Origin: Hymenolepis diminuta
Taxonomy: Eukaryota > Platyhelminthes > Cestoda > Cyclophyllidea > Hymenolepididae
DNA: 64,000 bases
Reading direction: 5' to 3'
Assembly: GCA_900708905.1 (NCBI GenBank)
Contig: CAADRB010000009.1
Coordinates: 755,435 to 819,434, forward strand
Each line of letters opens with the position of its first letter. Position 1 is the first letter of the stretch. A program made the translations under genes and the position numbers. The notes under the pieces are model-generated. The model ran no database searches, was not told where the DNA came from, and saw nothing but the letters and a program-made list of their open reading frames with translations. This document shows positions 1-48,065 of this stretch, one piece after another.

Positions 1-283
1 AAAAATAGTATACAAAATAAGTTCAGATCCTCAGCATCCCTGATTCTTTTCAAATAAACTCGGAATGAGAATGACCATAACAAAACCATAGAAAATAAGA
101 GCCACTTTCATGTAAGTGCGAAACGTATTAAATTCTGTCATCAAAAAGAGTCTTCATGAAAAGAAATCTATCGTGTAATTCCAAATCTATTCAGAACACT
201 TCCTCAGCCACAATTCTCTCAAATTGCCACCTTACTATTAAATGTGGGACGTTTTTGCTGTGCTATTATAAAACATCACTTAC

Positions 284-1489
284 TCTATCAGAAGTAACAG
301 CAGGAAGAAAGACAGGGTGAAAAGTGTTGCCACCATCCTCAGAAACACTGAGTTTTAGGGGACCTTTCTCATTATCAGCATCCTCTGTGAAGTGTGCAGC
401 ATAGAGAAAACGACCAGCAGGCCCACTTTTAGGATCATCGTCGTCTGCATCAGTGTAGGTTTCCGGGGCCCAAATTTTACGGACATTCCTCAACAATACT
501 CGCCATGTACTACCCCCGTCCTCAGATTTTGACAGCGTATAGGCATCTCGATTTGAAGTTGCTGTGGTTAAATTATCGATAAAGTAATAATCGAGTAATA
601 TGGTATATGAACTCAAGAAGTAAGACCTACGCTTCTTGGGACTTTTTCCGTGGAGGGCATAAATTGTATCCTTGGGATCAAAAGTAAATCGGGACCAGAA
701 GAAATCTTGGACATCTTGCAGAGCCGATTTCCACGATGAATCATCACCAATAGAGACGAAGAGTGTCTAAAAGTGCATAACATATAAACAAAGGCATAAA
801 AGCATACCTTTGTATTAGCTTCCATAGCTAGCACTGAGTATGAATCCGCATCAACAACTAGCAGCTTCAACTTTCCGTTCAAAATGAAAGGCAACTTCGA
901 TTTGTTCCAACTCTGACCGGAATCGGTGGTTGAGTATATGAGAGTGTGGTTTCGATTTTGCATATCATAACATACAACGTAAATCTTTACTAAATTCGAT
1001 CATATTATCAATCAGATACATACTTTTCTATTTTTTGCAGTTTTCCATGTTTGCAGACCGTTTTCACGTTTTATATGGATGTTTTCATCAAGATTCCCAG
1101 TGATCTTTTCGAAAGTTTTCCCATTATCAGTACTATGGAATAAAGTGAGAATTTGATATTACCTTCTATATAGATCAGATGGCTGTCCAAGACCCTGTTC
1201 ACTCTCACTCATTGTAACTAAGATTATGATCTGGAAAGTTATTATATTAAAACCACCTTACGCCAGTTGAATCACCAGTCCATGTAAGCTGGATAGTTTC
1301 CTTTGTATCATTTTTGAAGTAATACTAGGAAATATGAGAAAAAAAGCAACATACAAAATCAATGGGATGGCCATGCTTTATCGCCTCTGTAAATAATTTC
1401 TGTTGCGCCTTGCATTTATCTGGATCAGATGCGTATACTGACGCAGTAACGGCGAGGATAGTTAGAAGAAACATTATGCTGCAGCGCAT
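284..1489 (-). CDS. Sortilin-type VPS10 domain receptor, 5' part (partial)
   Basis: VPS10 receptors bind ligands in the lumen of Golgi and endosomes. Exons read on the minus strand: 1489-1355, 1324-1262, 1230-1163, 1132-1024, 984-808 and 766-284, giving 345 codons in one frame. The first ATG in frame is at 1489 (MRCSIMFLLTILAVTA), a clear signal peptide. Then come the VPS10 signature WTGDSTG and LYRSTDNGKTF, and Asp-box type motifs YSTTDSGQSW, SKSEDGGSTW and SVSEDGGNTF, as in the ten-bladed propeller of sortilin. The five introns are only 30, 31, 30, 39 and 41 nt. The last exon ends at a good donor (GTAAGTG) in phase 0. I could not find a matching phase-0 acceptor in 1-283, so the rest of the propeller, the membrane segment and the tail probably lie to the left. 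A hydrophobic reading frame on the minus strand at about 31-150 (MKVALIFYGFVMVILIP) could be a membrane-segment exon, but its phase does not fit directly. Family assignment is firm; the subfamily is not resolved. Confidence 0.85.
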
Positions 1490-2484
1490 CCAAAGCCCAT
1501 TACCTTTAAATACGTGCAAGCGGACTCAAGGTTAAAAAGTTGGTAAAATTCACCCAAATAAAAGACATTTGTGAAATATAACACATAGTTAAAAGTGTTT
1601 GAGTTTTCCATTTAATTCACCAGACAATTACAGTACGCAGTATTTTATTAATATCTTATTGTCGCCATGTATTAAACTACTCTAACATATTAAATGAAAA
1701 ATTATTATACATGTTTAGTAAAATGATTCAATGGAAAGTCCTTAAAAAATTTTTAATGGCTGTTTGTTGTATGACAGGGGTTTATATATTTATAAATATT
1801 CGGATCTATTCGGATCAAAATGACTTGACTTCACGTTGAGCCCATAACTCATAACGCATGAATATCACAACCGAGATCATGAGCTTAAAACTCGTTCGTG
1901 TACAAACACTAATTAGTATGATCAATTCTAGCGAATGCCACTGTTTTGAATGACTGGATGTAAGAATCTCGGTAAGGACGAGACTAAAATATATCCCTCA
2001 CTGATTTGATGATGGGAAACTGATTTCATTAAGATAAGATTTAACGTCAAGCATATCCTCTATAATGGCTAATTGAATTCCAACTGATTGTAGATTTTTT
2101 TACTACCTTCTTTCAGACTTTTTGTTGATAGAGAGTTCGATTTACTTTGTTGACATTGCAAAGTTCTTGGATTGTTAATTTATTTGCACATTTTAATAGA
2201 AATTGTGATACTTACATAAGTCATAGCTCATCTAGAAAATGTTCATTTCTTTTCTCATAAATCATTAACATGTCTGTCCCTTTTAATACATGTGCATTTT
2301 GGCGCTTTTGATAAATAGTAGTAAGACCTCAAGTTGTCTCATATTCCTTTCAAATTGGATTTTTATTTATTACTTTTATGTAATGTAGCATATCGTCAAA
2401 AATATTAATATTCACATTTTACGCGTTTATATTTCTCAAATAAGAAATCCCTTTTTGTTAACAATTGATTCTTTTAGACAACTA
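1490..2484. other. Divergent intergenic region between VPS10 gene and CMC1
   Basis: About 1 kb of AT-rich sequence separates two genes transcribed away from each other, so it probably carries both promoters. I see no coding exon, repeat or clear TATA box. A pyrimidine tract ending in TTCTTTTAG at about 2470-2476, just before the CMC1 start codon, could be a 5' UTR intron acceptor or a spliced-leader acceptor. Confidence 0.5.
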
Positions 2485-2961
2485 ATGGGCAATTATCTAT
2501 TCAAGAGTGATACTCTTGACTTCGCAGTTTTACCCTCAGAAAAGATAGAAGGCCCTTTAGGACTAGGTACCCTCTTAAATAAAATTTTATCCCATCTGAG
2601 GCTTTCCGGATGATGAACATCTAAGCAACGTTGAGAAGGAGACATTAATTCCCGCACTTTGCATGCAGCACGTGCGCAGAAATCAATGTGCCAAACCATG
2701 GACAGGTACTGACAAATTTCGCAATATTAATATTTCACCCGTAGAACTTGCTGAATGTTCAAAAAAGTGGCACTGGGCTTCAGTGGCCCTTTGTCGTAAA
2801 CACTTCGAAGATTCTATGAAGTGCAGCAAGAAAATGTAAGACACCTTTAAGTATCTGACCTTACAAGTCTTTCAGATCCTGAGTTCCAAGAGGAAATGCG
2901 GAAACGCTATTTAGAACTACGAGCTACCTACCGATCAACGGGGATCGAGTCCAAATACTAG
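2485..2961 (+). CDS. CMC1: CMC1-like twin CX9C mitochondrial protein
   Basis: Exons 2485-2566, 2601-2705, 2745-2835 and 2868-2961 give a 123-residue protein. Introns are 34, 39 and 32 nt. The motif DEHLSNVEKETLIP near residue 31 matches the CMC1 start region, and two CX9C motifs follow (CAKPWTELAEC and CRKHFEDSMKC). The first has exactly nine residues between cysteines only when the 39-nt intron is removed, which supports the model. The end (DPEFQEEMRKRY, then STGIESKY) matches the CMC1 C-terminus. CMC1 is a soluble intermembrane-space protein of the twin CX9C fold that stabilises newly made COX1 with COA3 during cytochrome c oxidase assembly. The N-terminal extension of about 28 residues before the conserved part, and the first intron, are less certain than the rest. 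The gene is tail-to-tail with the left SF3B1 copy, whose stop codon lies 150 bp downstream. Confidence 0.85.
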
Positions 2962-3053
2962 AGATCTTGTAAAATAATCTACTACTTCATTCCCTTCCAC
3001 TAAAAGAGTGTTTTAATAGTAAAAATCTTGCTTTTACTTGAAAATTTCCCGAT

Positions 3054-3059
3054 AATAAA
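3054..3059 (+). terminator. Poly(A) signal AATAAA for CMC1
   Basis: A canonical hexamer lies about 93 nt past the CMC1 stop codon, in the short gap before the oppositely oriented SF3B1 copy. Confidence 0.5.
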
Positions 3060-3110
3060 TAGAAACACAATGTAGGGTATAATACAGAGAATCAGTTTGG
3101 ACCAAAACCA

Positions 3111-6100
3111 CTACAGGATATAATCCAATTCGTGCCGAATGTACGTGTTTTTCTCCTCGTCTTTAATTCTGGGGAATCCATAAACCAAACCGTCCTGATT
3201 TCCAATGTAGATCGTATTATACACCTTCCACATTATATCTCGCACCTTTCGAGCTGGATGGTAAAGACCCTGCAGGACATATTGAATGAGTTTATTCGGA
3301 CCCAGGGCTACCCTGAAGCCTTCTATGGCACACAGAAAAGCCTGAATAACATGAGGCGATGTCTCAAAGACATTCGGCCAGACATAGTTGAGAAGATGCA
3401 GCAAGGCATCTTCACAACCAAATCCGTAGACACCCAATGCCATGTGACCCACAGCTGACATAGCAGTCTGTCGATGCACCAAATCTCTATCCATTAACGC
3501 ATCCTCAAGCAACGGCGTCACTGCGTAGATGTAGTCCTTACTCATCTCTCCTATGTACTCAAACATGAAGGCCAGTGACTTGAGTACACCATTCTGCACA
3601 TTCAACTCGGGCACTCTGTACTCGTTCATCAATCCAGGCAACACTGTGAAGGGAGAACAGGTCTCAGCCACAATAGCGATAGCCACTGTGGTGCAAACTC
3701 GATTCTGACGCTCCTGCACTTTTAAGTTGTTGAGGAGAGTGGCCAACACATCGTGGGGACCAATGGCCTTTGCAATGTAACCAAAAGTGTTCACCGCAGC
3801 ACGACGAATTGACTTCTTGTGCGCCTTGATCAACTCCAACAACTCGAAACAGATTCGCATCCACTCTCGAGATGAGACGTACTCCGAGCCACGATCTGCT
3901 ATTCTCCCCACCAAGTCGATACAATTCTCTTCCACCTTCTCATGTCTAAAAAGGAACAAAACGGTTACCACCTATAGAAAATAGGCAGTATTAGTAAGAC
4001 AAGGAAGAACGGTCAACTCACCGGTTCTTGAGAATGGGTGTCAAGCGAGGTAGGAGTTCTTTGATGGGAGGGGTCATTTTGGTCATTCCAATGACATTCA
4101 CAATGCTCTTCAGTGCGCCCAGAATTGAACCGAGGACTTCTGGATACTCCTCACCGAGATACTCGTACAGCACCACACCCAAGTGGCCCATCAACTTCTC
4201 TTCTTGGCAAATCTTCATCACTCCCGCGATACGACTAATCAAATCGGCTGCCTGCTGACGCACCTTCGCCGACTTGTTGTTCAGACGCCACAGAATAGTT
4301 CCGCAAATCTGAGGCAGATAGGGCTTCACTCGCACTCCCAACGCGTTAACCACTGTTCCGAATCCGGTCAGTAGAACAGCATCCTAGAATAGAACAGGAA
4401 TATCATTAACAAAATTCATTTAGGTGAAGAACTATTGATACTAATGGTGGCAAAGTAATATTTAGTGACTACCCACTAAGATTATATTTGAAACAAGTAA
4501 ATCGATGTTGTAGTGGTTAACAACTCCGCACTTTTTGAGTATCATATCCTCTAAATGCACCTAAGTTCAAATAATTTTTACTAGATACATACCTTTGCAT
4601 ATACCAGCTAACCGTTCTGTAACCTTGAAGATGGGGTAGACGCCACCGCTCGAACACATAAACCCGTGTAGTTTCAGGTTTACACTTTTTCGGCTATCAA
4701 ACATCAAAATTGATTTATGAAACTAAACTACTAAAATATATTTCAAACCAAAGCGCCTAAAACATTGTTCATATTTCAGTCACAAGTCTTTACATTCATT
4801 CTCCACCAACTCTTTTAGTCAAATTCATATCTTGTAACGAGCTGTAAAAGATTATTTTGACTACATTACGTTTTAACATCGATGTGCTTCAATGGATTCA
4901 ATACACATTAACAATTAACGACTAAAATTATGGCCATGAATTCTAGAGAATGAGACTGCTGAAACGATTTACCACACAGCAGTCGACTAGGACTTGAAGG
5001 TAAAACAGATCACACGAATAATACTGGTAAAAATAAGCAATTGCTTTCAAGCACAGATTAAACTTGATAAAACTAGATAAACGCGAAAGTAATTTAAAGT
5101 AAGGTTCGGCAATTAAAGCAACAGATTTTAAACAAGTATAGTAATAGTTACCATGCACATATTCTAAATTTAAAACTCAAGATAACGCATAGGACTTCCA
5201 AACAGTAATAAAATCTAGCGACATTTAAACATCTCTAACCGAAAACGGACCTACCTCAGTGGTCTGTTCTTGGAAGGCGTAGAGAATGCCATCAATCAAT
5301 TGTTCCTCCAGTCTCGCATCGATTTCTTCGCTGCCCAACGACGACATCACCTTCTCTATCGTCTCCATCACCATCTTACGATACTGCTCCGATTCCTCCT
5401 TTAAGTCATCCACTATACGAGTGATGATCTCGGCCGCGCCCACTTTGCCCGCTATCTCCACCGTTGTGTCCACCAACTAGCGGGGAAAGAAAAGAAAACA
5501 GAACAACAGTAAAGCGATAAGCCAACTAGACTCCAAGATTAAAGACAAGCCCCAAGTCAATGAAAGGACAGCTCACCGGTCGGTAGTTGCGTCGATCTAG
5601 AGCCATGCGCTGATTCCAAAAGTGTCTGAAGAATGGCGGCAGAATCTCATTTCGAATGTAGTCAGGTTCTACACCCTCCGTGGCACAGCACTGCTTCACC
5701 ACCTTCAGCACAATCTTCTTCATCTCCTCATCCGGAGAAGGGAACTCTCGAATCAACACCAACATCACTTCTCTCGTGTAGTAGTTCGCGTACTCTGCAT
5801 CCATCAGAGGAATCAAGTACCCAATCGCTTTGAGGAATGCTGCTAGACCCTTGCCACGATGACTACGAATGCCTCTCCACAGGGGCTTCAATACTGAATC
5901 AAATGACTCAATACCGTACGGCGTGGCTGCTTCAGCCAACGCGGCCAGAGCAAGTGCTGTGATGGTACGCACCTTCTGCTGCTCATCAACCAACCCGTGC
6001 TCAATGATCTCAACCAGAGAACGCAAGTGAGGCAAGATGGCGCAACCCATCAGAATGGAGATCTGCTGCACTATCTTGATTCCTGTGTGTCTCGCTTGCC

Positions 6101-9100
6101 ACGATTTCTTCGACTTGCACACTGCCTATAAGGAGAGAGGAACAATAATCAAGTTAGTTGAGATACCAAGACTCCATATAGAGAATGGGGATAAGTAAAG
6201 AGACATTTTGAGAAACGAACCTTCAAGAAGGGCAGTAGACTTGGAATGCCCAACGCCGACGCCACGACTGCAAACGCACGAGCCGTCGTGTTTCGCACAT
6301 ACTCGTCCACATTGTCTATATCTGGACGCATTGTCGATATCATTGTCGCCAATCCAGCTGCCTACAAGCAAGAAACTAGTTAGACGAGAAGGACAATACT
6401 ACTTATAAGAGAAAAGAATAGTAGCCAAAACCCACCTTGGCGAGATTGGAGATGATTTCACGGCCTTCCACACGCGCATAGTAGTCTTCGTCAATCAGAA
6501 GGGGCTCTATAACGACCAAAATCTTGTGCACATATGGACGCACCAAGTCATCCAACTTGTACAATATACGATCGATAACCTTAACCAACAAGTGACGCTC
6601 CTGGTCCTCCAATGTGGGTGACATTAGAAGAGGCAGAATCTGATTGAAGAGAGGACCCGCACCAAACTCTCTCGCCTTATCGGTGATCTGTCTTAGCGCT
6701 GACTTTCGCATTGGCGGTGTCCCATTCTTGATCTTCAACAGCAGAGTCATGATTTTGCGTTCAGTTGCCTCTTCCGGTGGCAAACTATCCTCATCCACGT
6801 CCTGCAACAACTTGTCAAAGTATTGCAAGTCATCTGGACGCATCATTGGCAGGTTGTCGCCCTTTGGCTGCAAATCACCCAACGCCACCGCATTCGCACC
6901 AGTCGCCGCTGATCCAATTCCCGCCACTGTTCCCACATCCGGCGTCGCCATGTGAAAACCAAAAGGCGTTCCAGCAACAGGTGTTGGAGTGGCCAGCAAT
7001 CGACGACCTGGTGTTCTCAAGGGTACATAGCCCGCTGGAGGGGGAAGAATCTTGTAGCCAGGAGGCAACATCTCATCCAACTCTTCGTCTGTCAATGGAC
7101 GATTTCGATCGTCCATCTCCTGCTGCCACTGCACAGCTCGCATCTGCTCTGGAGTCATTGGAATTCCTGTTCCGGGAATTGTGCTGGCTATTCCAAATCC
7201 TGGCGTCGCCATTCCAATCACCTTGGGGCCACTGGGAGTTGCACCAGAGGGTGTGAATCCCAGACCAGGGGTTGCTATTCCGGGAGTGGCCATGGCCGGA
7301 GTGAAACCACTTGGAGTGGCACCTGCAGGAGTCATGCCACCCATTGGTGTGTTACCGACTTTCGGCGTCTCATCCCAACGCGACTTGCGCTTCGCCATCA
7401 CAGCCGCCGCCGTATTAGGCGTCTGACCGAATGCCTTGTAGTTCGAGGAGGGTGTGTCTTGGATAGAATTCACTCCACCATCGGCTCTCGGAGTCTCTGC
7501 CCAGCCCGCTCCGTGGCCTGGTGTGTCCGCTCCAAAACGCTCTGAATGGGGTGTCTCGTCCCAGCGGTTCTTGCGTGTGCTTGGTGTTCCCTACAAAGGA
7601 GAGAGAAAACAGATAGTGCATAAAATTACATAATGAGATCTGAAAATAGTCATGTAGATACATGAGTGACATCGTGTGGTAAAATGTTCATTCGTCAATA
7701 ATGTTTACCTTCCAATATCCCAAACTTTCTAGCAAAGTAACGAGATTAAGCCCAAGTCATATAGAAGACAGTATCCAATGCAATAAATCGAACAAGCTAG
7801 AAACCACTCAAAAATCCAATTTGGTGCTTTATAAAGAATCTATAGGATGTGAATCCTAATTGCAAAATCCGCAATTTCTCATTTGAGTTGGTTCCGACTC
7901 AATTGAGCTGGGGAACAGGGATTATTCCCAACCAACTAGCGATTTTCAACTCAACATTCTTATGCTGCGAATCTTAAAATATATACGATTATTAGAAAAC
8001 AAGTAAAACTAACTGTAAGATACCTACCGATGTAGCCCTTCATAGTCTCCTAAGTAACAGACGTTCACGCAGTCCAAGTTAGTCGGCGCGATCCAACAAG
8101 AGCAAACTACAAACAACCAAGAGCAGAAACGAATACCTAGAGAACGGAAAGAAAACTAACAAACGACCCAACACACTCTTTTGCTAAGGACCCTTCAAAC
8201 GGCCATATCCAACTACCAAGCACCAAAAAGGCCTGGTATTAAGAAATAACCTTACTTGAACACTATGCTATTCATTGGCAAGTGTATGTCTACCGTGCAA
8301 GCCCTAAGTGGTCCACCTAATCCATTTGATGGACAACAGACAGTGAAGTGAAACCTGCCGATAGTTCGAAAAACCTTTAAGTGAACGATCTTATCAAGTA
8401 AATGCGAACTGAATAAAATGAAGGAAGAGAAATAAGCTTGTAGTTTTTTAATTAAAGGACAACTAGCGACCGTGATGTTCACATAAATATGTATGTCGTA
8501 TACAAGACTTGATCATGCAAAAAAAGACTGAAGGAAAGACAGTGAGGGGTATAAAAAGAGAAACTTACAGCTAGAGCATCACGACCCGGTGTTGCAGCAG
8601 TAGGCACGTAAGCCGGCGTTTCAGCCCACTGCCTCGACCCAGGAGTGGCACCCCCTGACACTCCATCTCCAAGTGGTCGCCCTGGTGTCTCCTCCCACTG
8701 ACGTCTCCCCGGCGTCTTAGCACTGCTCGGAGTGGCTGATGGTTGAATGGGTGTTGCTGCGGCCGATATGTCCTTTCCATTAGCGTCTGACGACGGTTGA
8801 TCCCATCGACGACGTTTCACAGGTGGTGGAGGTGCTACCGGTTCGGCTACTTTTAACTCTCCCGACTTCGCCTTCGCGCTTATCTCTGCACGCAGTACTC
8901 GCTGCTCTTGATTGAGCTTCTGATTGAGCATAACATCTTTGTAAGTACTCAGTCTTGGATCGGGGGTCATATCGCCTGATAGCAAGCAAGACAAAATGAA
9001 ACAATTATTCGCATCATCGCACTAAGCTATTAGGACGCGCAATTTATAAAAAAAACAATGGGAAATAAACAAATTTGGCACATTTACGTAAGATAAACCA

Positions 9101-9317
9101 TGCTGATCGTCTTATTAGTGCCTATCGGCTATATGAATCCCATCACATGAAGAAAACCTTTAGATGATAAATGCCAAAAATAAAATCCAAATTTATTACC
9201 GTCAGCGAAGGGATCCGCCCGAACTGGCGAAAGAACGGCCTTTAGACGTTGAGCATGATATTCATCCTCGCGATCAGCAATCGCCTTTCTTCTAACATCG
9301 AGCTCATTTTCCTCCAT
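3111..9317 (-). CDS. SF3B1: SF3B1, left copy of inverted pair (5'-incomplete)
   Basis: Splicing factor 3B subunit 1, the large HEAT-repeat protein of the U2 snRNP that clamps the branch-point helix. Exons on the minus strand: 9317-9200, 8975-8569, 7590-6436, 6361-6221, 6125-5577, 5476-5255, 4383-4022 and 3945-3111 (1,262 codons plus stop). It is base-for-base the mirror of the right copy up to 3121. From 3120 on it differs: the last codons read TAT ATC CTG TAG, against TAC ATT CTC TAA on the right, both encoding YIL-stop. The 3' flank is only loosely similar to the right copy. No AATAAA is seen; an ATTAAA variant lies near 3012-3017 (minus). The first about 95 residues of the family are missing, as in the other copy. 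It could be a true paralogue, or an assembly duplicate of the right copy joined to a real second 3' end. Confidence 0.9.
4593..4693 (-). other. Candidate poison exon, left SF3B1 copy (mirror)
   Basis: Exact mirror of 14461-14561, with the same splice signals and frame consequence. Confidence 0.4.
8028..8106 (-). other. Candidate poison exon, left SF3B1 copy (mirror)
   Basis: Exact mirror of 11048-11126, with the same acceptor, donor and premature stop. Confidence 0.4.
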
Positions 9318-9836
9318 ATTGCTTTTGAATAAGCCGGTTATGCTATGGGCTAATTAAAGCACATACTGACATCTAGATTAGACAAAAATGATGGAGCAAA
9401 TAATGCACTATTCTGATATTTCAAAAACAAAAGTTTATTTTCTGACTCAATGAAGATATTTTCTTAAAAATTGGCAGTTGCTATTTTAAAAAAATTTAAA
9501 AATTCACATTTGTCAACAAGAAACAATATGTCATGTTATAGTACTGATTTAGTGTCTTTTCTTCTATTTTTTGCATNATGCAAAAAATAGAAGAAAAGAC
9601 ACTAAATCAGTACTATAACATGACATATTGTTTCTTGTTGACAAATGTGAATTTTTAAATTTTTTTAAAATAGCAACTGCCAATTTTTAAGAAAATATCT
9701 TCATTGAGTCAGAAAATAAACTTTTGTTTTTGAAATATCAGAATAGTGCATTATTTGCTCCATCATTTTTGTCTAATCTAGATGTCAGTATGTGCTTTAA
9801 TTAGCCCATAGCATAACCGGCTTATTCAAAAGCAAT
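9318..9836. other. Palindrome centre: spacer between the two SF3B1 start regions
   Basis: About 259 bp on each side of the axis, AT-rich, with identical mirrored sequence. I find no exon matching the conserved SF3B1 N-terminus here. Possible acceptors precede the first recognisable exon (TCTAATCTAG and TTTAATTAG on each arm). If the palindrome is real, this 519-bp stretch would have to act as a shared bidirectional promoter. Confidence 0.6.
9577..9577. other. Single undetermined base at the palindrome centre
   Basis: The only ambiguous base in the window lies exactly on the symmetry axis, between GCAT and ATGC. Some scaffolding programs write a lone n where two contigs are joined with a negative gap estimate, so this may mark a contig join rather than a sequenced base. 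Confidence 0.9.
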
Positions 9837-12800
9837 ATGGAGGAAAATGAGCTCGATGTTAGAAGAAAGGCGATTGCTGATCGCGAGGATGAATATCATG
9901 CTCAACGTCTAAAGGCCGTTCTTTCGCCAGTTCGGGCGGATCCCTTCGCTGACGGTAATAAATTTGGATTTTATTTTTGGCATTTATCATCTAAAGGTTT
10001 TCTTCATGTGATGGGATTCATATAGCCGATAGGCACTAATAAGACGATCAGCATGGTTTATCTTACGTAAATGTGCCAAATTTGTTTATTTCCCATTGTT
10101 TTTTTTATAAATTGCGCGTCCTAATAGCTTAGTGCGATGATGCGAATAATTGTTTCATTTTGTCTTGCTTGCTATCAGGCGATATGACCCCCGATCCAAG
10201 ACTGAGTACTTACAAAGATGTTATGCTCAATCAGAAGCTCAATCAAGAGCAGCGAGTACTGCGTGCAGAGATAAGCGCGAAGGCGAAGTCGGGAGAGTTA
10301 AAAGTAGCCGAACCGGTAGCACCTCCACCACCTGTGAAACGTCGTCGATGGGATCAACCGTCGTCAGACGCTAATGGAAAGGACATATCGGCCGCAGCAA
10401 CACCCATTCAACCATCAGCCACTCCGAGCAGTGCTAAGACGCCGGGGAGACGTCAGTGGGAGGAGACACCAGGGCGACCACTTGGAGATGGAGTGTCAGG
10501 GGGTGCCACTCCTGGGTCGAGGCAGTGGGCTGAAACGCCGGCTTACGTGCCTACTGCTGCAACACCGGGTCGTGATGCTCTAGCTGTAAGTTTCTCTTTT
10601 TATACCCCTCACTGTCTTTCCTTCAGTCTTTTTTTGCATGATCAAGTCTTGTATACGACATACATATTTATGTGAACATCACGGTCGCTAGTTGTCCTTT
10701 AATTAAAAAACTACAAGCTTATTTCTCTTCCTTCATTTTATTCAGTTCGCATTTACTTGATAAGATCGTTCACTTAAAGGTTTTTCGAACTATCGGCAGG
10801 TTTCACTTCACTGTCTGTTGTCCATCAAATGGATTAGGTGGACCACTTAGGGCTTGCACGGTAGACATACACTTGCCAATGAATAGCATAGTGTTCAAGT
10901 AAGGTTATTTCTTAATACCAGGCCTTTTTGGTGCTTGGTAGTTGGATATGGCCGTTTGAAGGGTCCTTAGCAAAAGAGTGTGTTGGGTCGTTTGTTAGTT
11001 TTCTTTCCGTTCTCTAGGTATTCGTTTCTGCTCTTGGTTGTTTGTAGTTTGCTCTTGTTGGATCGCGCCGACTAACTTGGACTGCGTGAACGTCTGTTAC
11101 TTAGGAGACTATGAAGGGCTACATCGGTAGGTATCTTACAGTTAGTTTTACTTGTTTTCTAATAATCGTATATATTTTAAGATTCGCAGCATAAGAATGT
11201 TGAGTTGAAAATCGCTAGTTGGTTGGGAATAATCCCTGTTCCCCAGCTCAATTGAGTCGGAACCAACTCAAATGAGAAATTGCGGATTTTGCAATTAGGA
11301 TTCACATCCTATAGATTCTTTATAAAGCACCAAATTGGATTTTTGAGTGGTTTCTAGCTTGTTCGATTTATTGCATTGGATACTGTCTTCTATATGACTT
11401 GGGCTTAATCTCGTTACTTTGCTAGAAAGTTTGGGATATTGGAAGGTAAACATTATTGACGAATGAACATTTTACCACACGATGTCACTCATGTATCTAC
11501 ATGACTATTTTCAGATCTCATTATGTAATTTTATGCACTATCTGTTTTCTCTCTCCTTTGTAGGGAACACCAAGCACACGCAAGAACCGCTGGGACGAGA
11601 CACCCCATTCAGAGCGTTTTGGAGCGGACACACCAGGCCACGGAGCGGGCTGGGCAGAGACTCCGAGAGCCGATGGTGGAGTGAATTCTATCCAAGACAC
11701 ACCCTCCTCGAACTACAAGGCATTCGGTCAGACGCCTAATACGGCGGCGGCTGTGATGGCGAAGCGCAAGTCGCGTTGGGATGAGACGCCGAAAGTCGGT
11801 AACACACCAATGGGTGGCATGACTCCTGCAGGTGCCACTCCAAGTGGTTTCACTCCGGCCATGGCCACTCCCGGAATAGCAACCCCTGGTCTGGGATTCA
11901 CACCCTCTGGTGCAACTCCCAGTGGCCCCAAGGTGATTGGAATGGCGACGCCAGGATTTGGAATAGCCAGCACAATTCCCGGAACAGGAATTCCAATGAC
12001 TCCAGAGCAGATGCGAGCTGTGCAGTGGCAGCAGGAGATGGACGATCGAAATCGTCCATTGACAGACGAAGAGTTGGATGAGATGTTGCCTCCTGGCTAC
12101 AAGATTCTTCCCCCTCCAGCGGGCTATGTACCCTTGAGAACACCAGGTCGTCGATTGCTGGCCACTCCAACACCTGTTGCTGGAACGCCTTTTGGTTTTC
12201 ACATGGCGACGCCGGATGTGGGAACAGTGGCGGGAATTGGATCAGCGGCGACTGGTGCGAATGCGGTGGCGTTGGGTGATTTGCAGCCAAAGGGCGACAA
12301 CCTGCCAATGATGCGTCCAGATGACTTGCAATACTTTGACAAGTTGTTGCAGGACGTGGATGAGGATAGTTTGCCACCGGAAGAGGCAACTGAACGCAAA
12401 ATCATGACTCTGCTGTTGAAGATCAAGAATGGGACACCGCCAATGCGAAAGTCAGCGCTAAGACAGATCACCGATAAGGCGAGAGAGTTTGGTGCGGGTC
12501 CTCTCTTCAATCAGATTCTGCCTCTTCTAATGTCACCCACATTGGAGGACCAGGAGCGTCACTTGTTGGTTAAGGTTATCGATCGTATATTGTACAAGTT
12601 GGATGACTTGGTGCGTCCATATGTGCACAAGATTTTGGTCGTTATAGAGCCCCTTCTGATTGACGAAGACTACTATGCGCGTGTGGAAGGCCGTGAAATC
12701 ATCTCCAATCTCGCCAAGGTGGGTTTTGGCTACTATTCTTTTCTCTTATAAGTAGTATTGTCCTTCTCGTCTAACTAGTTTCTTGCTTGTAGGCAGCTGG

Positions 12801-15800
12801 ATTGGCGACAATGATATCGACAATGCGTCCAGATATAGACAATGTGGACGAGTATGTGCGAAACACGACGGCTCGTGCGTTTGCAGTCGTGGCGTCGGCG
12901 TTGGGCATTCCAAGTCTACTGCCCTTCTTGAAGGTTCGTTTCTCAAAATGTCTCTTTACTTATCCCCATTCTCTATATGGAGTCTTGGTATCTCAACTAA
13001 CTTGATTATTGTTCCTCTCTCCTTATAGGCAGTGTGCAAGTCGAAGAAATCGTGGCAAGCGAGACACACAGGAATCAAGATAGTGCAGCAGATCTCCATT
13101 CTGATGGGTTGCGCCATCTTGCCTCACTTGCGTTCTCTGGTTGAGATCATTGAGCACGGGTTGGTTGATGAGCAGCAGAAGGTGCGTACCATCACAGCAC
13201 TTGCTCTGGCCGCGTTGGCTGAAGCAGCCACGCCGTACGGTATTGAGTCATTTGATTCAGTATTGAAGCCCCTGTGGAGAGGCATTCGTAGTCATCGTGG
13301 CAAGGGTCTAGCAGCATTCCTCAAAGCGATTGGGTACTTGATTCCTCTGATGGATGCAGAGTACGCGAACTACTACACGAGAGAAGTGATGTTGGTGTTG
13401 ATTCGAGAGTTCCCTTCTCCGGATGAGGAGATGAAGAAGATTGTGCTGAAGGTGGTGAAGCAGTGCTGTGCCACGGAGGGTGTAGAACCTGACTACATTC
13501 GAAATGAGATTCTGCCGCCATTCTTCAGACACTTTTGGAATCAGCGCATGGCTCTAGATCGACGCAACTACCGACCGGTGAGCTGTCCTTTCATTGACTT
13601 GGGGCTTGTCTTTAATCTTGGAGTCTAGTTGGCTTATCGCTTTACTGTTGTTCTGTTTTCTTTTCTTTCCCCGCTAGTTGGTGGACACAACGGTGGAGAT
13701 AGCGGGCAAAGTGGGCGCGGCCGAGATCATCACTCGTATAGTGGATGACTTAAAGGAGGAATCGGAGCAGTATCGTAAGATGGTGATGGAGACGATAGAG
13801 AAGGTGATGTCGTCGTTGGGCAGCGAAGAAATCGATGCGAGACTGGAGGAACAATTGATTGATGGCATTCTCTACGCCTTCCAAGAACAGACCACTGAGG
13901 TAGGTCCGTTTTCGGTTAGAGATGTTTAAATGTCGCTAGATTTTATTACTGTTTGGAAGTCCTATGCGTTATCTTGAGTTTTAAATTTAGAATATGTGCA
14001 TGGTAACTATTACTATACTTGTTTAAAATCTGTTGCTTTAATTGCCGAACCTTACTTTAAATTACTTTCGCGTTTATCTAGTTTTATCAAGTTTAATCTG
14101 TGCTTGAAAGCAATTGCTTATTTTTACCAGTATTATTCGTGTGATCTGTTTTACCTTCAAGTCCTAGTCGACTGCTGTGTGGTAAATCGTTTCAGCAGTC
14201 TCATTCTCTAGAATTCATGGCCATAATTTTAGTCGTTAATTGTTAATGTGTATTGAATCCATTGAAGCACATCGATGTTAAAACGTAATGTAGTCAAAAT
14301 AATCTTTTACAGCTCGTTACAAGATATGAATTTGACTAAAAGAGTTGGTGGAGAATGAATGTAAAGACTTGTGACTGAAATATGAACAATGTTTTAGGCG
14401 CTTTGGTTTGAAATATATTTTAGTAGTTTAGTTTCATAAATCAATTTTGATGTTTGATAGCCGAAAAAGTGTAAACCTGAAACTACACGGGTTTATGTGT
14501 TCGAGCGGTGGCGTCTACCCCATCTTCAAGGTTACAGAACGGTTAGCTGGTATATGCAAAGGTATGTATCTAGTAAAAATTATTTGAACTTAGGTGCATT
14601 TAGAGGATATGATACTCAAAAAGTGCGGAGTTGTTAACCACTACAACATCGATTTACTTGTTTCAAATATAATCTTAGTGGGTAGTCACTAAATATTACT
14701 TTGCCACCATTAGTATCAATAGTTCTTCACCTAAATGAATTTTGTTAATGATATTCCTGTTCTATTCTAGGATGCTGTTCTACTGACCGGATTCGGAACA
14801 GTGGTTAACGCGTTGGGAGTGCGAGTGAAGCCCTATCTGCCTCAGATTTGCGGAACTATTCTGTGGCGTCTGAACAACAAGTCGGCGAAGGTGCGTCAGC
14901 AGGCAGCCGATTTGATTAGTCGTATCGCGGGAGTGATGAAGATTTGCCAAGAAGAGAAGTTGATGGGCCACTTGGGTGTGGTGCTGTACGAGTATCTCGG
15001 TGAGGAGTATCCAGAAGTCCTCGGTTCAATTCTGGGCGCACTGAAGAGCATTGTGAATGTCATTGGAATGACCAAAATGACCCCTCCCATCAAAGAACTC
15101 CTACCTCGCTTGACACCCATTCTCAAGAACCGGTGAGTTGACCGTTCTTCCTTGTCTTACTAATACTGCCTATTTTCTATAGGTGGTAACCGTTTTGTTC
15201 CTTTTTAGACATGAGAAGGTGGAAGAGAATTGTATCGACTTGGTGGGGAGAATAGCAGATCGTGGCTCGGAGTACGTCTCATCTCGAGAGTGGATGCGAA
15301 TCTGTTTCGAGTTGTTGGAGTTGATCAAGGCGCACAAGAAGTCAATTCGTCGTGCTGCGGTGAACACTTTTGGTTACATTGCAAAGGCCATTGGTCCCCA
15401 CGATGTGTTGGCCACTCTCCTCAACAACTTAAAAGTGCAGGAGCGTCAGAATCGAGTTTGCACCACAGTGGCTATCGCTATTGTGGCTGAGACCTGTTCT
15501 CCCTTCACAGTGTTGCCTGGATTGATGAACGAGTACAGAGTGCCCGAGTTGAATGTGCAGAATGGTGTACTCAAGTCACTGGCCTTCATGTTTGAGTACA
15601 TAGGAGAGATGAGTAAGGACTACATCTACGCAGTGACGCCGTTGCTTGAGGATGCGTTAATGGATAGAGATTTGGTGCATCGACAGACTGCTATGTCAGC
15701 TGTGGGTCACATGGCATTGGGTGTCTACGGATTTGGTTGTGAAGATGCCTTGCTGCATCTTCTCAACTATGTCTGGCCGAATGTCTTTGAGACATCGCCT

Positions 15801-16043
15801 CATGTTATTCAGGCTTTTCTGTGTGCCATAGAAGGCTTCAGGGTAGCCCTGGGTCCGAATAAACTCATTCAATATGTCCTGCAGGGTCTTTACCATCCAG
15901 CTCGAAAGGTGCGAGATATAATGTGGAAGGTGTATAATACGATCTACATTGGAAATCAGGACGGTTTGGTTTATGGATTCCCCAGAATTAAAGACGAGGA
16001 GAAAAACACGTACATTCGGCACGAATTGGATTACATTCTCTAA
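9837..16043 (+). CDS. SF3B1: SF3B1, right copy of inverted pair (5'-incomplete)
   Basis: Exons 9837-9954, 10179-10585, 11564-12718, 12793-12933, 13029-13577, 13678-13899, 14771-15132 and 15209-16043, with introns of 224, 978, 74, 95, 100, 871 and 76 nt. The 1,262-residue product starts near IADREDEY, which sits about 100 residues into the human protein. Then come TP-rich repeats with RWDETP-type ligand motifs for U2AF-like domains, the p14-binding segment ([11 protein letters not shown] to [12 protein letters not shown], about residues 320-370), and HEAT repeats to the end (HELDYIL). Residues mutated in human cancers are conserved: VRNTTARAF (R625 site), WQARHTGIK (H662 and K666) and DEQQKVRT (K700). 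The ATG used is the first available. The frame is open a few codons upstream to a possible acceptor (TTAATTAG), so this exon is probably internal and the true first exons are absent. AATAAA follows 100 nt after the stop. Confidence 0.95.
11048..11126 (+). other. Candidate poison exon in the 978-nt SF3B1 intron (right copy)
   Basis: A 79-nt block of about 50% GC sits in an otherwise AT-rich intron. It follows a strong pyrimidine tract ending TTGTTTGTAG and ends at a good donor (CATCG|GTAGGTAT). The flanking exons join in phase 0. Read in that phase, the block hits TGA at its 14th codon, and its length is not a multiple of three. Inclusion would therefore truncate SF3B1, as expected of a poison exon. 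The mirror copy is at 8028-8106 (minus). Splicing use is inferred. Confidence 0.4.
14461..14561 (+). other. Candidate poison exon in the 871-nt SF3B1 intron (right copy)
   Basis: A 101-nt GC-richer block lies between an acceptor (TGTTTGATAG) and a strong donor (GCAAAG|GTATGTAT). It is open throughout in the phase left by the preceding exon, beginning [17 protein letters not shown]. It exits in phase 2, so joining it to the next exon gives a stop within five codons (AGG ATG CTG TTC TAC TGA). Skipping it restores the conserved [13 protein letters not shown] junction. The mirror copy is at 4593-4693 (minus). Confidence 0.4.
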
Positions 16044-16142
16044 TGTTTTTTTGCCGAATCTATTTCATTGTATCATATTCGCGCATTGTGCTAATATTTA
16101 GTATAATTCTGTTTGGATGTTTGTATTTCTTCATGTTCATGA

Positions 16143-17498: not shown

Positions 17499-18056
17499 AT
17501 GACAAACAAATCTGCAAAAAGGACTGAAATTAATTTCCGGGTAAATACCTTGGAGGTAAGAACTCGGTTGGATGGATTTAATTTTTTAAAGTCACAAGAA
17601 ATTCAAGAAGCTTTTGACCTATTTGATACAGATAAAACAGGTTTTATCGACACAAAAGATTTAAAAGTGGCCATGAGAGCACTTGGCTTTGAACCAAAGA
17701 AGGAAGAAATAAAGAAACTCATAGCAGAATATGATCCCGATGGCAAAGGTATGTAATTATAATATTTATTATAATCATTAGGTGTTCTATCATATTCCGA
17801 TTTTTTAAAAATGATGACAATCAAGATGCAGGACAAAGATGCTCGTGAGGAAGTAATCAAAGCATTCAAATTATTTGACGATGATGAAACTGGAGCCATA
17901 TCTTTGAAAAACTTGAAACGCGTCGCCAAGGAACTTGGTGAAAATATTACAGATGAAGAACTTCAGGAGATGATTGATGAAGCTGATAGAGATGGTGATG
18001 GGGTTGTCAATGAAGCGGAATTTCTTCGCATTATGAAGAAGACTAATATGTACTGA
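17499..18056 (+). CDS. Centrin (caltractin), four EF-hands
   Basis: Exons 17499-17555, 17592-17748 and 17782-18056 give 162 residues, the usual centrin length. Introns are 36 and 33 nt. The 36-nt one is a multiple of three with no stop, so it could be missed; removing it brings the sequence in line with other centrins ([14 protein letters not shown]). EF-hand loops: [36 protein letters not shown] and [12 protein letters not shown]. Only the fourth has the canonical glutamate at position 12, so strong calcium binding is expected mainly there. [27 protein letters not shown] and the C-terminal KKTNMY are diagnostic of centrins rather than calmodulin. Centrins act in centrioles and basal bodies, and in XPC and nuclear-pore complexes. 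The gene is convergent with OSGEPL1. Confidence 0.95.
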
Positions 18057-18821: not shown

Positions 18822-21081
18822 CTATGCACTATTTTCACCCGATCCTCGACATTTACCAACTTGAAGTGGCTTTATTCTAATATTTGCTGCAGCAACTTCC
18901 GCCCGAATGTCCTTTCCAAGGGGTGCCCTGAAAAAATAAGAAAATGTTAATTTCTAACACTTAGTAGAAAATTAACAATGAAAGAGAAAAATAGATTACC
19001 TTGGACTGAAGTCAATTGAACTTGGGTTATATTCAATTCGTCTGCCTTGGGAATGGAGCAAGGCACCGTTCCTACAAGTACAGAAACAAACTTTTATAAT
19101 ATTAGTAACGACGGGGATAGTAATAATTCTCAAGACCATAGAGGAAAATAGTTTTTAGACACTCATGTTAGGTAGAGGAACGAAATTCTAGGTTCGTTCT
19201 GGACGGAAAAACTAATTCATTTGCCTCTTTTGACCATTCCATTCACCAGACTTATATCAATTCACCACGAACCTACGGTCTTCAATAAGAGATACATATT
19301 AACCTATAGTTAGTCTCCTGCGTTCTGGATAAATTTTCATAATTTCTACTTTTCTTTGTCCAAATTGAAGTGTTTAAGTCAGCCGAAATTACGCTCAGCT
19401 TTCTAATTCCGCTATGCTTACCAAGCTATCACCAGACTGAATTCGCTTGAGTTACAGGCCACCGCCACAATCTTCCTATTGCTTACCGGTGTGTTAATAA
19501 TGAGGTACCAGCCTGCGACTATCACATTGGTACCACTTTGTTACAGTAGAGATTTAATTGTCGAAGCTATTAGGGTAGGAATTAACTAAACTGGGGATAA
19601 CCATCCTAATCGATCCTACTTTCCGTTTCGGTTTGCGTAGCAATTAGTGTTAAAGCTTAATAAATAACTATACTACCGACAACAACACAGAGATACGGGT
19701 ACACAAATAGGGTTAACTCACCAAGCGATCATTACACCATTATCTGTACATAATCGGGGAGGAGGGGCAGTAAAACGCATTCCATAATAAGCAGCCACTT
19801 TAGCCAACTCTGATCGCATAAAGTGATTGCTTGCTACCCCACCAGAAATCACCTAGATTTAAAGGAGGTAGACATCTATTAATCAACAGTAAATTTGCCA
19901 GTTGCGTAAATATTATGACAAAATAGCATACAAGTGCTGGTGCCGAAAGGTCAGTGACTTCCCGAATTTCAGGTCTCGACCATGTGGGCTCAGGAATTTG
20001 CACCGACGAAGGAAGAAGAGAATTATGCACACAGTACGCTATAGCTCTCTGCACTCTTCTACAAAACAATCTAGTCACTGACGTTTGACAAGCAGCACAA
20101 ATCGATGCAATTACGTCAGTCGGGAGGGGACTACATTGCATCTCCTTTTCTAAGTTAGCAATCAATCGTTCGGCCGCTGATCTAATACCCGAGAAGGAGA
20201 AATCACAATCCCGAGAAACGCTGCGCGGTGTAGGCATAGGATACGCAGTTGGGTTGGAACTGGTTTGTGCCATTAATTCAATAGCCATTCCACCGGGAAT
20301 TTGATTAAATTCACCATCATTTAAGGTTGATAATTTTAAACGACGGGCAATCTAAGAGTTCTAAATTAACAAAACATATACTTACCTTATCTAAACAATC
20401 TCCCGGAGACATGTCCAAAGATGTTCCAAGTAACAGAAATTCATCTACACTTTTCGCGAGAGCCAAAAGTGAATGTCCACCACTAACTAACAGAACCAGA
20501 AATGGAAAAGTTAAACTTTCATATCAGATTGTGAAAAAACCAGAATTACTTTTTATCTGTTAGTAAAGCGGTTAAGGCATGGGCTTCCATATGGTGAATA
20601 GGGATAATTGGCAGTCTATCAAATAAAAAATACAGTGAGAACGTGGTCAAACTTGTATTTAGTGGCCAAATTCTTCGCATAGACGACACCGATTTTAAGG
20701 GATAAAGCCATTCCAGGTTTTACAGTTACTGCGATAGCATCTAAATCTCTAAACGAAAGGCTTGAATTTCTCATAGCAGTTAAAACTGTCGACGCAATAT
20801 TTTCAGCATGCAATTTTTGTGCAATTGGAGGTACTACGCCGCCATTTCTAGATGTGAATTTAGCATAAAATTAAATAAAACAATAAATACTTTACTGAAG
20901 TGGCTGTCTGAGATGCGATCGCTTCACCTAAAACTAACCTTTGATCATTTACAACTGCAGCACCAGTATCATCACAGCTTGTTTCTATTCCCAAAATAGT
21001 TGAAAAAGATCGAAATTTAAAGTGTCTTGTGGCGCATATTACTCGAGCAACAACGGAGTATGAGAACAGCATCAAGGTCAA
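18822..21081 (-). CDS. OSGEPL1: Mitochondrial tRNA N6-adenosine threonylcarbamoyltransferase (OSGEPL1/Qri7)
   Basis: Transfers the threonylcarbamoyl group to A37 of ANN-decoding tRNAs (t6A) in mitochondria. Exons on the minus strand: 21081-20891, 20847-20653, 20615-20550, 20515-20386, 20351-19932, 19852-19722, 19071-19000 and 18927-18822, giving 436 residues (the human protein has 414). The first four introns are 43, 37, 34 and 34 nt; the rest are 79, 650 and 72. The N-terminus ([20 protein letters not shown]) is basic and hydrophobic like a mitochondrial presequence, followed by the Kae1/TsaD signature [14 protein letters not shown]. Other landmarks: [10 protein letters not shown], metal-binding [48 protein letters not shown] and [15 protein letters not shown]. 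Intron 1 must use the second GT (AAA|GTATTT) and intron 2 the donor GTTTGA to keep the conserved frame. All catalytic motifs are intact. The presequence points to the mitochondrial paralogue, not cytosolic OSGEP. Confidence 0.95.
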
Positions 21082-23569
21082 CAGATTAAAGTCACTCGCG
21101 GGAATTCATCAAAACCTTGAAAAATGTTATGAGGAAATAAACCTTTAATTTAATGTTTTTAAACTTTTTATTTATATTGTAATGTATTTAAAATTATGTA
21201 AGCTTAGTATTTTGCTTTCTATGAATATAAAGCTGTAAGAAATTTTATAAACTGCAAAAATTACGAAAAGGTGGGTCTATTGAACTTTATTAAAGTACTT
21301 TTTGTTCACTTTAGATGGTGTTTATAAAATATTTTGAAATGTAAAATGCTATTTAAATTGATTTTATATTAATTATAGAATATAAATCTGATATTAATAT
21401 GCAATTTCACTTTTGTCTGCTTTTACAAATAATAAGGTTTGCAGAATTGTACGGCAAAAATTCTATTAAATTATACATAAATGGTTACTCATGAAATAAT
21501 GTCCAATTGTTATTTGATAAAATATGAGATTTCTGATTCCTTTTTGATTCGATTATGCTTACTAGCTTTCAAATTCCCATACTTTATTGCTCATGGTTTT
21601 CATTGCCGAAGAATTGGTTACAAGTTTGACCATAGCAGCTCAGATGAAGTTATTCACAAATGGACGAAATATCATTACTTCATGCAAACATTTTAAAAAT
21701 GATCGAACAGAGCTAAGCATATAATGATAATGTATCCATCGTAATTACGAAAAGTATACACTGATTTTGGAAATTTATTCAAGTTAAATTGATGGAAATT
21801 AGAACGAAATTAATTGATCTCCTAAATCATTTGATTCAGAAGTTCCGTAATTTCTCCAATCAAATATTAGAGTTGGGTAAGCAAAATTCATTAATTCAAT
21901 ATGATTAAGCACTTGAATAATGAGGTATGGATCGAATTAATTTAAGGAAAAGTTGGGATGAGTCAGTTGTAAAAGAATATGTGAATAAATGTATAGTCCA
22001 AATATTAAGAAAGTGCAAATACAAATGCCCTTTTCTTCTCATCTCAAAAAAATATTAATTTAGAATTTATACTCTTCGATTAATTCACTTATTGTTCTAA
22101 TAATTTTCCCGACTTATTCCGTCATTCAAAAGGAATTCAAGGATCATCTTTATACCCTGTCCGAAATTTCCGTTTACCTTTCGTACGAATAACTTGAATT
22201 GATAGGTGATAGAATACGATCTACATGGTATCATGAATACATATTAAATAAATTGCAATAATTTGATTATATGTATCTAATAATTATCCTGGTAAGACAT
22301 TTGCTTCCATCTTGATCACGGAATGATGCTCAATCGATTTTGACACACTATAAACCTTAAGTGAACTGACAATTTAGGTGAATATTTAATTTTAAAATAA
22401 ATGCGGAAGCATACACCTAGCTTTAATTTGTCACTTTCAAATACATTCAATATTTTGACGTTTTCGTTCTAAAATAGATGTTTTCAATCGGTAAAGATCA
22501 ACAAAATAAGTGTATATCATTAAGACAGTTGATTGGAGTCCAACTTAAGCTAACTCTAATGAGCTTTGCTATATTTAATGAATCGCTTCCAGTTTCATCT
22601 ACCTTCTCTTGGGTGTGAGAAGATACGGATGATTCTGAATATTATGGATATACATTCACCCAAGTAGCAAGATACTCACCTTTAGAATATTTTTTTAAAC
22701 AAATATTTAGAATATTTGTTTATAGCAAAGTGAATTGTGCTCTTTATGGGGAAGTGGTTATCCCATGCAAAAGAACTTACACAAGTATTTTTGCATTACC
22801 GATTATAGAAAATGATAATTTCATGTTCGTATAAGATACGAGTTGGACAAAGAGATATGTGGGGGTCAAGAATACTATTATTAAAAGATGAATAAAGTAT
22901 GATTGTAAGAGTTTATTTCTAAACATTAAAGGATTTTCTTGATTTTAAGTAGTGATAGGTACTATTTGAACCTAACAACTTTCTTATATTTAAGCGCATT
23001 CATTCTAATTGCTATATTTTCTAAGGCCAAAAGCTTGCATGCATACTGTTCCAACCGTTCATGATATTTTAATAGCAAGTATATGGGTATATTTGAGCCT
23101 GTATGAATATATGATATTTAGTGATGGTTTCTTTCTCATCTTCTAGTTTGGGGTAAGAGAAAAGTGAACTGGTTTAAATTCAGTTTTAAAAAGGATTATT
23201 TCGATGAGGTAAGAAATTTGACGTAATTTGAAGAGGAAAACCAATTATCTGATAATATCTATGGGCTTTTCAAATTTTTTCAAATCGGTGATAATCTGCA
23301 ATTATCAAGAAATTATTAATTTAAGTCCCTTAATTGGCCCAGATTTTTTAATATTTTGACGTTTCAGAATCAGTATTTCAGACTCATATTTTTGGAGAAA
23401 TTTCCCTCAAATAAATTATCCCCCAAGAAGAGAAATCTAATGTTGGGTTTCATAAAAAAATCAGAGACCATTAATTTTTTAAATTTGATTAATTATTATG
23501 TATACTGAGTGCCTAATCAAAATAAAATAAAAGATCGGGAATAAGTTGAAATCCAATGATCAGAAAAAG
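21082..23569. other. AT-rich spacer
   Basis: Very AT-rich, with only short chance reading frames. It contains the upstream region of OSGEPL1. No repeat or exon could be supported. Confidence 0.5.
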
Positions 23570-23905
23570 CTAATTGAAGCGACAGGACCTACCATTCTTG
23601 AATGAATAGTACCGGTCAGTGAGCACTGAACATCGTAGACAAGCATTTACTGCAATCCAGGGCACGAAGCATGAAATTTGGATTTTGGAACCAAATATTT
23701 TGCAAAATTTGTACGACCCAAATTTACATATCAAATGAGGCAAGATTCGATATTGCTCTCTGGACCTTTTTTATCCACTCCATTTATCATTCATTAGAAT
23801 TACTGTTATTCAACGTCACTTGCTTCCCACAATTAAAAATTGTAACATTTTTCTCATTACCATGGATAATAATAAATAACAATAGTTTAGTATTGTTAGA
23901 AAGCT
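23570..23905 (+). repeat. Dispersed repeat R1, copy 1
   Basis: Shares order and sequence with 39905-40335: ACCGGT(C/A)A, ACTGAACATCGTAGACAAG, ATCCAGGGCACGAA, TCAAATGAGG, and near the end TTCCCACAATTAAAAATTGT followed by an ATAATAATAA run. Strongly diverged, so an old copy. Class unknown. Confidence 0.65.
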
Positions 23906-39904: not shown

Positions 39905-40335
39905 ACCTTCAGTGGGCACAGCCAACTGAGCTCTGCTAACCGCTATCTTTCTCATCCTTGCTATGATAAGGCTGTAAGCTCATGAATCACATTAAGAAAA
40001 TTTCCTCTTCTCAGCCATTTGAGGAAAAACGAAATAAAGCCGCAAAACCGACTCTTTCTGATTAAAAAATACCGGTAAATAAACACTAAACATTGTGGAT
40101 AAGTATTTGCTATGATCCAGGGGACAAATCATAAAATGTGAATTTCCGAATACGAACCGTCCACTTAATAAATATTATACATCTGGATTTCAAAAATCAA
40201 ATGAGGTAAGATTCTCGGTCTCCTCCAGATCATTATTTGTCCGGCTTATTGTTAACCGATTTCAGTTGCTTCCCACAATTAAAAATTGTACAATTTTTTA
40301 TGTCACTGTGGGTAGTAATAATAATGGGAATATTA
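39905..40335 (+). repeat. Dispersed repeat R1, copy 2
   Basis: Matches copy 3 in its first half (CCAACTGAGCTCTGCTAACC, CTGTAAGCT, GCAAAACCGACTC, TGATTAAAAA) and copy 1 in its second half (ATCCAGGGGACAAATCAT, AAATCAAATGAGG, TTCCCACAATTAAAAATTGT). It is therefore the fullest copy and shows that copies 1 and 3 belong to one family. Confidence 0.7.
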
Positions 40336-47624: not shown

Positions 47625-48065
47625 ATATAGCTAACACCTAACAAGAGCGACAACAGTTACAGAGCGCAACATCAAGAACTGACTAAGCCAAAATGTATTA
47701 AACAAATCACTATGAGGATTCAAAACTTGGGCTATGAGAGGAAAGGGTTGGAGAAGATAAATGACAGGTATGAGTTAAAAAAACGATGTGGGAGCAAGAA
47801 AATGAGAGGCAAGCATGCGAGCCAATAACTGCAAAGCATGTATGCTTGTGTGTGTGCTTGTAGGCTTGAAAATGCAATGACAATTGTAGAGTAACTTGTG
47901 TATGGATAAACGCGTTTAGATATGACACATATTGGTTTTGAGTCTTGGGGATATAAAGACATCACTTCGGCTTCGTGGACAGAAGACCGAAGTATTGACC
48001 TAGTGAATGCGAATAGAGTAATTCTGGAAATGCACGAGAATCGCCCTTCAAGTCTTTTATAGCAT
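47625..48065 (+). repeat. Dispersed repeat R2, copy 1
   Basis: Colinear with 50972-51425. Shared landmarks in order: GAATATAG, CTAACA(A)CTAAC, ATGAGGATTCA, GCAAGC-TGCG, GTTTGAGTC-like block, GGATATAAAGACATCAC, CGGCTTCGTGG, ACCGAAGTA, GATGCGAATA-type block. About 440 bp, higher in GC than its flanks. Class unknown. Confidence 0.7.

Follow-up and report, generated by a model that had tools for sequence, protein, structure and literature searches.

A probable old pair of SF3B1 genes in Hymenolepis diminuta, drawn by its assembly as a perfect palindrome

The tapeworm Hymenolepis diminuta probably carries an old divergent pair of SF3B1 genes whose bodies have been homogenised by gene conversion. 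The pair lies in a stretch of 64,000 nucleotides (contig CAADRB010000009.1 of assembly GCA_900708905.1, positions 755,435 to 819,434, forward strand), here called the window. There, two complete genes stand head to head in two arms of 6,456 bp, each the exact reverse complement of the other, with a single N between them. Just outside the arms, the two genes end in 3' sequences that are homologous and diverged.

These two features must be read differently. The tails speak for two old gene ends. The perfection of the mirror, in turn, may owe much to the way in which the assembly was built, and the chromosome should not be assumed to contain the palindrome in this exact form.

The palindrome and its genes

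Counted base by base outward from the N at 9577, all 6,456 mirrored positions match, and the first mismatch falls at 6,457. A repeat search of the 64-kb window recovers the same inverted repeat, with 1 nt between its arms, and the N at 9577 is the only one in the window. A preliminary description of this DNA had claimed two exact arms about a lone N, alike in introns as well as exons; the mirror comparison, with zero mismatches, agrees with it on both points. The features concerned are as follows.

3040..3120, minus strand: 3' end of copy A, with TAT ATC CTG, stop TAG and 3'UTR; found at a single place in the 203 contigs searched
3111..9317, minus strand: coding region of SF3B1 copy A, mirroring the exons of copy B; same protein, stop TAG
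3121..9576, minus strand: left arm, 6,456 bp, matching the reverse complement of the right arm at every base; contains SF3B1 copy A
9318..9576, minus strand: presumed 5' region of copy A, the mirror of 9578..9836
9577..9577, no strand: the axis, a single N, most likely put there by the scaffolder to mark an overlap of contigs and not a base read by sequencing
9578..9836, plus strand: presumed 5' region of copy B, 259 bp from axis to start codon, G+C 0.27
9578..16033, plus strand: right arm, 6,456 bp; contains SF3B1 copy B minus its last 10 coding bases
9837..16043, plus strand: coding region of SF3B1 copy B, 8 exons, 1,262 aa, stop TAA
9837-9954, 10179-10585, 11564-12718, 12793-12933, 13029-13577, 13678-13899, 14771-15132 and 15209-16043, plus strand: exons of copy B
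16034..16115, plus strand: 3' end of copy B, with TAC ATT CTC, stop TAA and 3'UTR; found at a single place in the 203 contigs searched

Each gene has 8 coding exons separated by GT-AG introns and encodes 1,262 amino acids; in each, the last 10 coding bases fall outside the arm. Copy B starts with the ATG at 9837 (plus strand) and copy A, by mirroring, with that at 9317 (minus strand). Both genes are intact.

By its sequence, the protein is full-length SF3B1, the SF3b155 of the U2 snRNP, with its SF3b1 domain and its HEAT repeats. Pfam finds PF08920 (SF3b1 domain, E 3e-40) together with HEAT families, and the solved SF3B1 chain 5ife_C matches residues 301-1262 of the query, reaching the last residue of that chain. 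The SF3B1 protein of Echinococcus granulosus is 92% identical over its full length. The solved chains and the Pfam families therefore uphold the name that the preliminary description had given to the gene. No Hymenolepis SF3B1 entry appears among the matches listed for the full-length query (best 120 of 2,600, in 90% clusters whose members are hidden). A query with the 398 C-terminal residues found no flatworm name among the best 120 of 1,294 matches, which are likewise 90% clusters and mostly unnamed.

The preliminary description had also hinted that N-terminal exons are absent. This does not hold, because the ATG sits where most of the flatworm SF3B1 proteins compared begin. In a comparison of nine flatworm proteins, seven (P0001-P0007) begin 10-12 residues ahead of the motif IADREDEY; here the distance is 12. 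Of the other two, P0009 has a longer start and P0008 a shorter one, and P0001 and P0005 both come from E. granulosus.

Two different 3' ends

The arms do not end at random. The first mismatches fall at 6,457, 6,460, 6,463, 6,466 and 6,469, that is, at every third base. They strike the last three codons, the stop codon and the following triplet, each at its third position. Copy A ends TAT ATC CTG TAG and copy B ends TAC ATT CTC TAA. Thus, every third position is changed in the last three codons and the stop, while the end of the encoded protein is unchanged. These three codons and the stop are the entire coding share of the divergence.

Beyond the stop codons, the likeness continues for a short distance. 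A BLAST alignment across the arm edge spans 87 columns at 72% identity. Its first 16 columns belong to the arm; past the arm, identity is about 66% over about 70 bp. For each length, the alignment score of the two tails was compared with the scores of 3,000 draws made at random in the flanks. Starting at the arm edge, the tails score 12 over 60 bp (reached by 0 of 3,000 draws), 12 over 90 bp (again 0/3,000) and 4 over 120 bp (899/3,000). Starting after the stop, they score 13 over 60 bp (0/3,000), 6 over 90 bp (250/3,000), 4 over 150 bp (716/3,000) and 3 over 300 bp (1,307/3,000). Because the scores at the longer lengths fade into chance, the homology of the tails extends over some 60-90 bp and is lost beyond. 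Each tail has a plausible poly(A) signal, AATAAA at 99 nt past the stop in copy B and ATTAAA at 93 nt past the stop in copy A.

The third-position differences and the alignment of about 66% outside the arms show that there are two old SF3B1 3' ends, standing on one common body. Judged from the sequence, diverged but homologous tails outside the arms are what an old duplication kept alike by conversion would be expected to leave. The protein of the last exon matches these two gene ends and no other place in the 203 contigs searched.

Two simpler accounts of the ends were considered and set aside. A fold-back or missed-adapter read would give identical outer ends, whereas those observed are different, homologous tails. 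Alleles are unlikely, given that heterozygosity in H. diminuta is reported to be below 0.05% (PMC6890685).

The assembly and the N

There is a strong case, made indirectly, that this assembly is the 2019 hybrid assembly of H. diminuta (PMC6890685). That assembly joined short-read de Bruijn contigs (ABySS, dnaasm) by means of nanopore reads, with LINKS and dnaasm-link as linking tools and with k-mer distances of 6, 7, 8, 19, 20 and 30 kb (PMC6890685). As published, it has 719 scaffolds and 177.07 Mb, the longest scaffold measuring 6.94 Mb; the underlying reads are in ENA under ERP113437 (PMC6890685).

Where contigs overlap, dnaasm-link is described as placing a single "N" between them (PMC6487145). 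The N at 9577 is therefore most likely the mark of a join, presumably written, if the match to the H. diminuta paper is correct, by dnaasm-link rather than by ABySS. A single N in an assembly made with that tool is the pattern that an overlap join leaves. The suspicion in the preliminary description that the lone N came from a scaffolder is borne out to this extent.

The contigs are long. Across C9:685435-889434 (204 kb, made up of the window and 14 further stretches of its contig), there is no N besides that at 9577; the count for the 14 stretches is 0/14. Three additional stretches were inspected. Two are free of N, and one, C1:3000001-3010000, has a run of 9,387 N at its positions 1-9387, presumably a long gap or sequence that was withheld.

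In a de Bruijn graph, of course, a repeat is one node. If that node has two exits, a contig entering from either flank stops at its far end. Since such a node can be used twice, perfect identity and the absence of a spacer can arise from construction. Further, the centre of the mirror is one N, the very sign that the scaffolder writes for overlapping contigs, so that neither the exact identity nor the zero spacer can be assigned to the chromosome. The two arms are exact as assembled, but one graph node may have served for both. In the same way, the inverted order and the short spacer are seen in the assembly through the one-N join, the spacer itself being unassembled.

A toy de Bruijn model

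How contigs should end was explored in a toy graph with seven cases at k = 64. For an inverted pair separated by a 1-bp spacer, both contigs take 6,456 arm bases and stop at the same base. With a random spacer of 300 bp they take 6,457, i.e., one chance base more, and with dispersed copies that have unrelated 5' flanks, 6,456. A palindrome with zero spacer is read straight through, for 12,912 bases. When the second copy is cut to its last 2,000 or 100 bp, both contigs stop at 2,002 or 100, respectively, and copies at 0.5% divergence stop the contigs at 344.

At the unitig level, when there is no spacer, the mirror extends beyond the axis by 32, 32 and 48 bases for k of 64, 65 and 97. The real contig end has no terminal palindrome, its longest exact half being 1 bp.

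Within this model, the observed ends are compatible with two full-length, near-identical copies that have at least one unassembled base between them, or with dispersed copies. They do not fit a palindrome without a spacer, nor a truncated second copy. "Identical" here means identical up to what an assembler smooths away, because the model omits bubble popping and mate pairs.

Other copies, contamination and neighbouring features

Searches of 203 contigs (170.6 Mb) with a 2.5-kb piece of the arm, the last-exon protein, the innermost 137 bp of the arm and either tail found no third copy and no contig holding the spacer. The published assembly is larger, with 719 scaffolds and 177.07 Mb, so these searches may have passed over a small contig. 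A literature search found no published duplication or paralog of SF3B1 in flatworms.

A centrin gene lies about 1.5 kb past the right arm (17499-18056, plus strand), and 174 of its 174 residues are identical to a Hymenolepis diminuta protein. This speaks against contamination, as evidence that covers flank B only. Third-position G+C is 0.547 in SF3B1 (9837-16043) vs. 0.32 in this centrin, a contrast that is no test, as it sets one gene against one.

Farther along the same side, a piece of a TsaD/OSGEP-type gene lies at 19800-20351 (minus strand; PF00814, E 1.2e-6). On the other side, a small gene-like stretch with two open frames runs at 2600-2961 (plus strand), convergent toward the 3' end of SF3B1 copy A, and is single-copy in the 203 contigs. 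Positions 1-1500 (minus strand) hold a multi-exon gene, putatively a sortilin/VPS10-type receptor as judged by eye; a Pfam scan of two of its exon pieces returned 0 families. Three weak direct repeats, perhaps old dispersed ones, pair 23562-23875 with 40022-40321 (64% over 320 columns), 47906-48023 with 51265-51383 (79% over 121 columns) and 43896-43994 with 44974-45072 (77% over 101 columns). No RNA family reaches its gathering score in the 64-kb window.

A homogenised divergent pair and its alternatives

The reading that we consider probable begins with an old inverted duplication that would have produced two complete, divergent SF3B1 genes, separated by a short asymmetric stretch that is missing from the assembly. 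Ectopic gene conversion between the inverted copies would then have made their bodies near-identical, introns included, and would have halted at the last codons and the 3'UTR, where too little homology was left by then. Such a history would place identical introns next to diverged last codons. A single recent conversion event covering the whole body would suffice. Both genes would yield one and the same SF3B1 protein, and their 3'UTRs would remain distinct.

The assembly offers a sharp arm boundary and homologous, diverged tails, set against one common block of 6,456 bp upstream. From these, we infer that the chromosome has two full bodies, that they lie in inverted order and that conversion is the cause; the head-to-head order depends solely on the scaffolder's nanopore link. 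GC-biased conversion is not supported in the introns. Their G+C in the arms is 0.351, compared with a mean of 0.319 for 200-bp pieces of 20.5-64 kb and with 0.325 for the nearby non-coding flank. Thus, they are barely richer than the rest and bear no clear mark of long GC-biased conversion.

The preliminary description had offered recent duplication, gene conversion or assembly error. Conversion of an old pair is favoured among these, with the assembly having drawn the perfect palindrome without a spacer. A pure copying or fold-back error does not survive the finding that the 3' ends differ and yet are homologous.

Might the two near-identical copies be arranged otherwise than head to head, the nanopore join at 9577 being wrong? 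Dispersed copies with unrelated 5' flanks do give the same contig ends in the toy graph. Further, dnaasm-link discards k-mers that are present more than once (PMC6487145). Arm k-mers occur twice, which leaves only k-mers of the flanks to support the link. With two real arms these would be separated by 12.9 kb or more, while the nanopore reads have means of 6.4 and 10.1 kb and an error of 11% after correction (PMC6890685). The k-mer distances of 19, 20 and 30 kb could, however, span 12.9 kb (PMC6890685), and no independent evidence for another arrangement was found. We regard a misplaced join as unlikely. Somewhat less likely still is a single complete SF3B1 body, which the assembler would also have pasted onto an old remnant with the second 3' end. 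The tails do form an old pair, and the body is one graph node that was possibly reused; the rise of the contig total from 162.78 to 167.66 Mb upon the addition of mate pairs (PMC6890685) may include such reuse of repeats. Against this, with a remnant of 2,000 or 100 bp both toy contigs stop at 2,002 or 100, respectively, and not at 6,456.

The sequence as it stands in the assembly could, of course, be taken literally, as exact arms with a spacer of zero or one base. A one-base spacer does reproduce the observed contig ends exactly in the toy graph, but many other spacer lengths fit as well. If the spacer is zero, the toy graph reads through and unitigs keep 32-48 mirrored bases past the axis, and the real contig end has nothing of the kind. 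Moreover, the instability of inverted repeats is reported to rise with arm length and identity and to fall with spacer size (PMC1803023). A literal palindrome is thus very improbable.

Returning to the homogenised pair, a stronger form of it can be put, to which we give somewhat less than even chances. Here, two SF3B1 genes would truly stand head to head on the chromosome, in arms of about 6.5 kb and near 100% identity, with a very short spacer and a long history of being held alike by conversion. An essential splicing gene would then exist as a self-correcting palindrome of two copies with one shared promoter region.

Comparison with known systems

A real pair would bring a flatworm and a core gene of the spliceosome into the group of divergent pairs that are maintained by conversion, and the last three codons would become a sharply defined place that shows where conversion stops. 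If the pair is not real, it serves as a worked example of how a perfect palindrome, each arm with its intact gene, can come from a repeat node together with a one-N join, and counts of gene copies would be misled by it.

A real pair would, by analogy, work like cases described in Caenorhabditis and on the human Y chromosome. In C. elegans, the divergent paralogs F44E5.4 and F44E5.5 lie in an inverted repeat with arms of 2,207 bp, a spacer of 126 bp and 99.7% identity; in C. briggsae, CBG13231 and CBG13232 are 100% identical over their first 297 nt and 59.6% identical overall, their C-termini having diverged (PMC1803023). An active mechanism of maintenance has been proposed for such pairs (PMC1803023). 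As assembled, the SF3B1 genes resemble them in being two divergent paralogs with near-perfect arms, and their 3' ends have diverged as have the C-terminal parts of CBG13231 and CBG13232. Unlike F44E5.4/F44E5.5, whose arms have been compared between species, the SF3B1 arms come from one species, are three times longer and hold a spliceosome core gene; unlike the Caenorhabditis pairs generally, their arrangement and spacer depend on a scaffolder's join.

In palindrome P6 of the human Y chromosome, minimum conversion tracts have a mean of 2,068 bp and reach 9,023 bp (PMC3723533). There, too, inverted arms are kept alike by conversion, and the tracts are long enough for a body of 6.5 kb. P6, however, lies on a mammalian sex chromosome, and its conversion is seen directly in genotypes and is GC-biased, whereas the SF3B1 introns have no evident GC bias.

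Finally, the junction itself has a known counterpart in the overlap joins of dnaasm-link, where a single N stands between contigs that have sequence common to both ends (PMC6487145). In an ordinary join of this kind, the same DNA is seen twice. Here, by contrast, the common sequence is inverted and leads into a different gene tail on either side.
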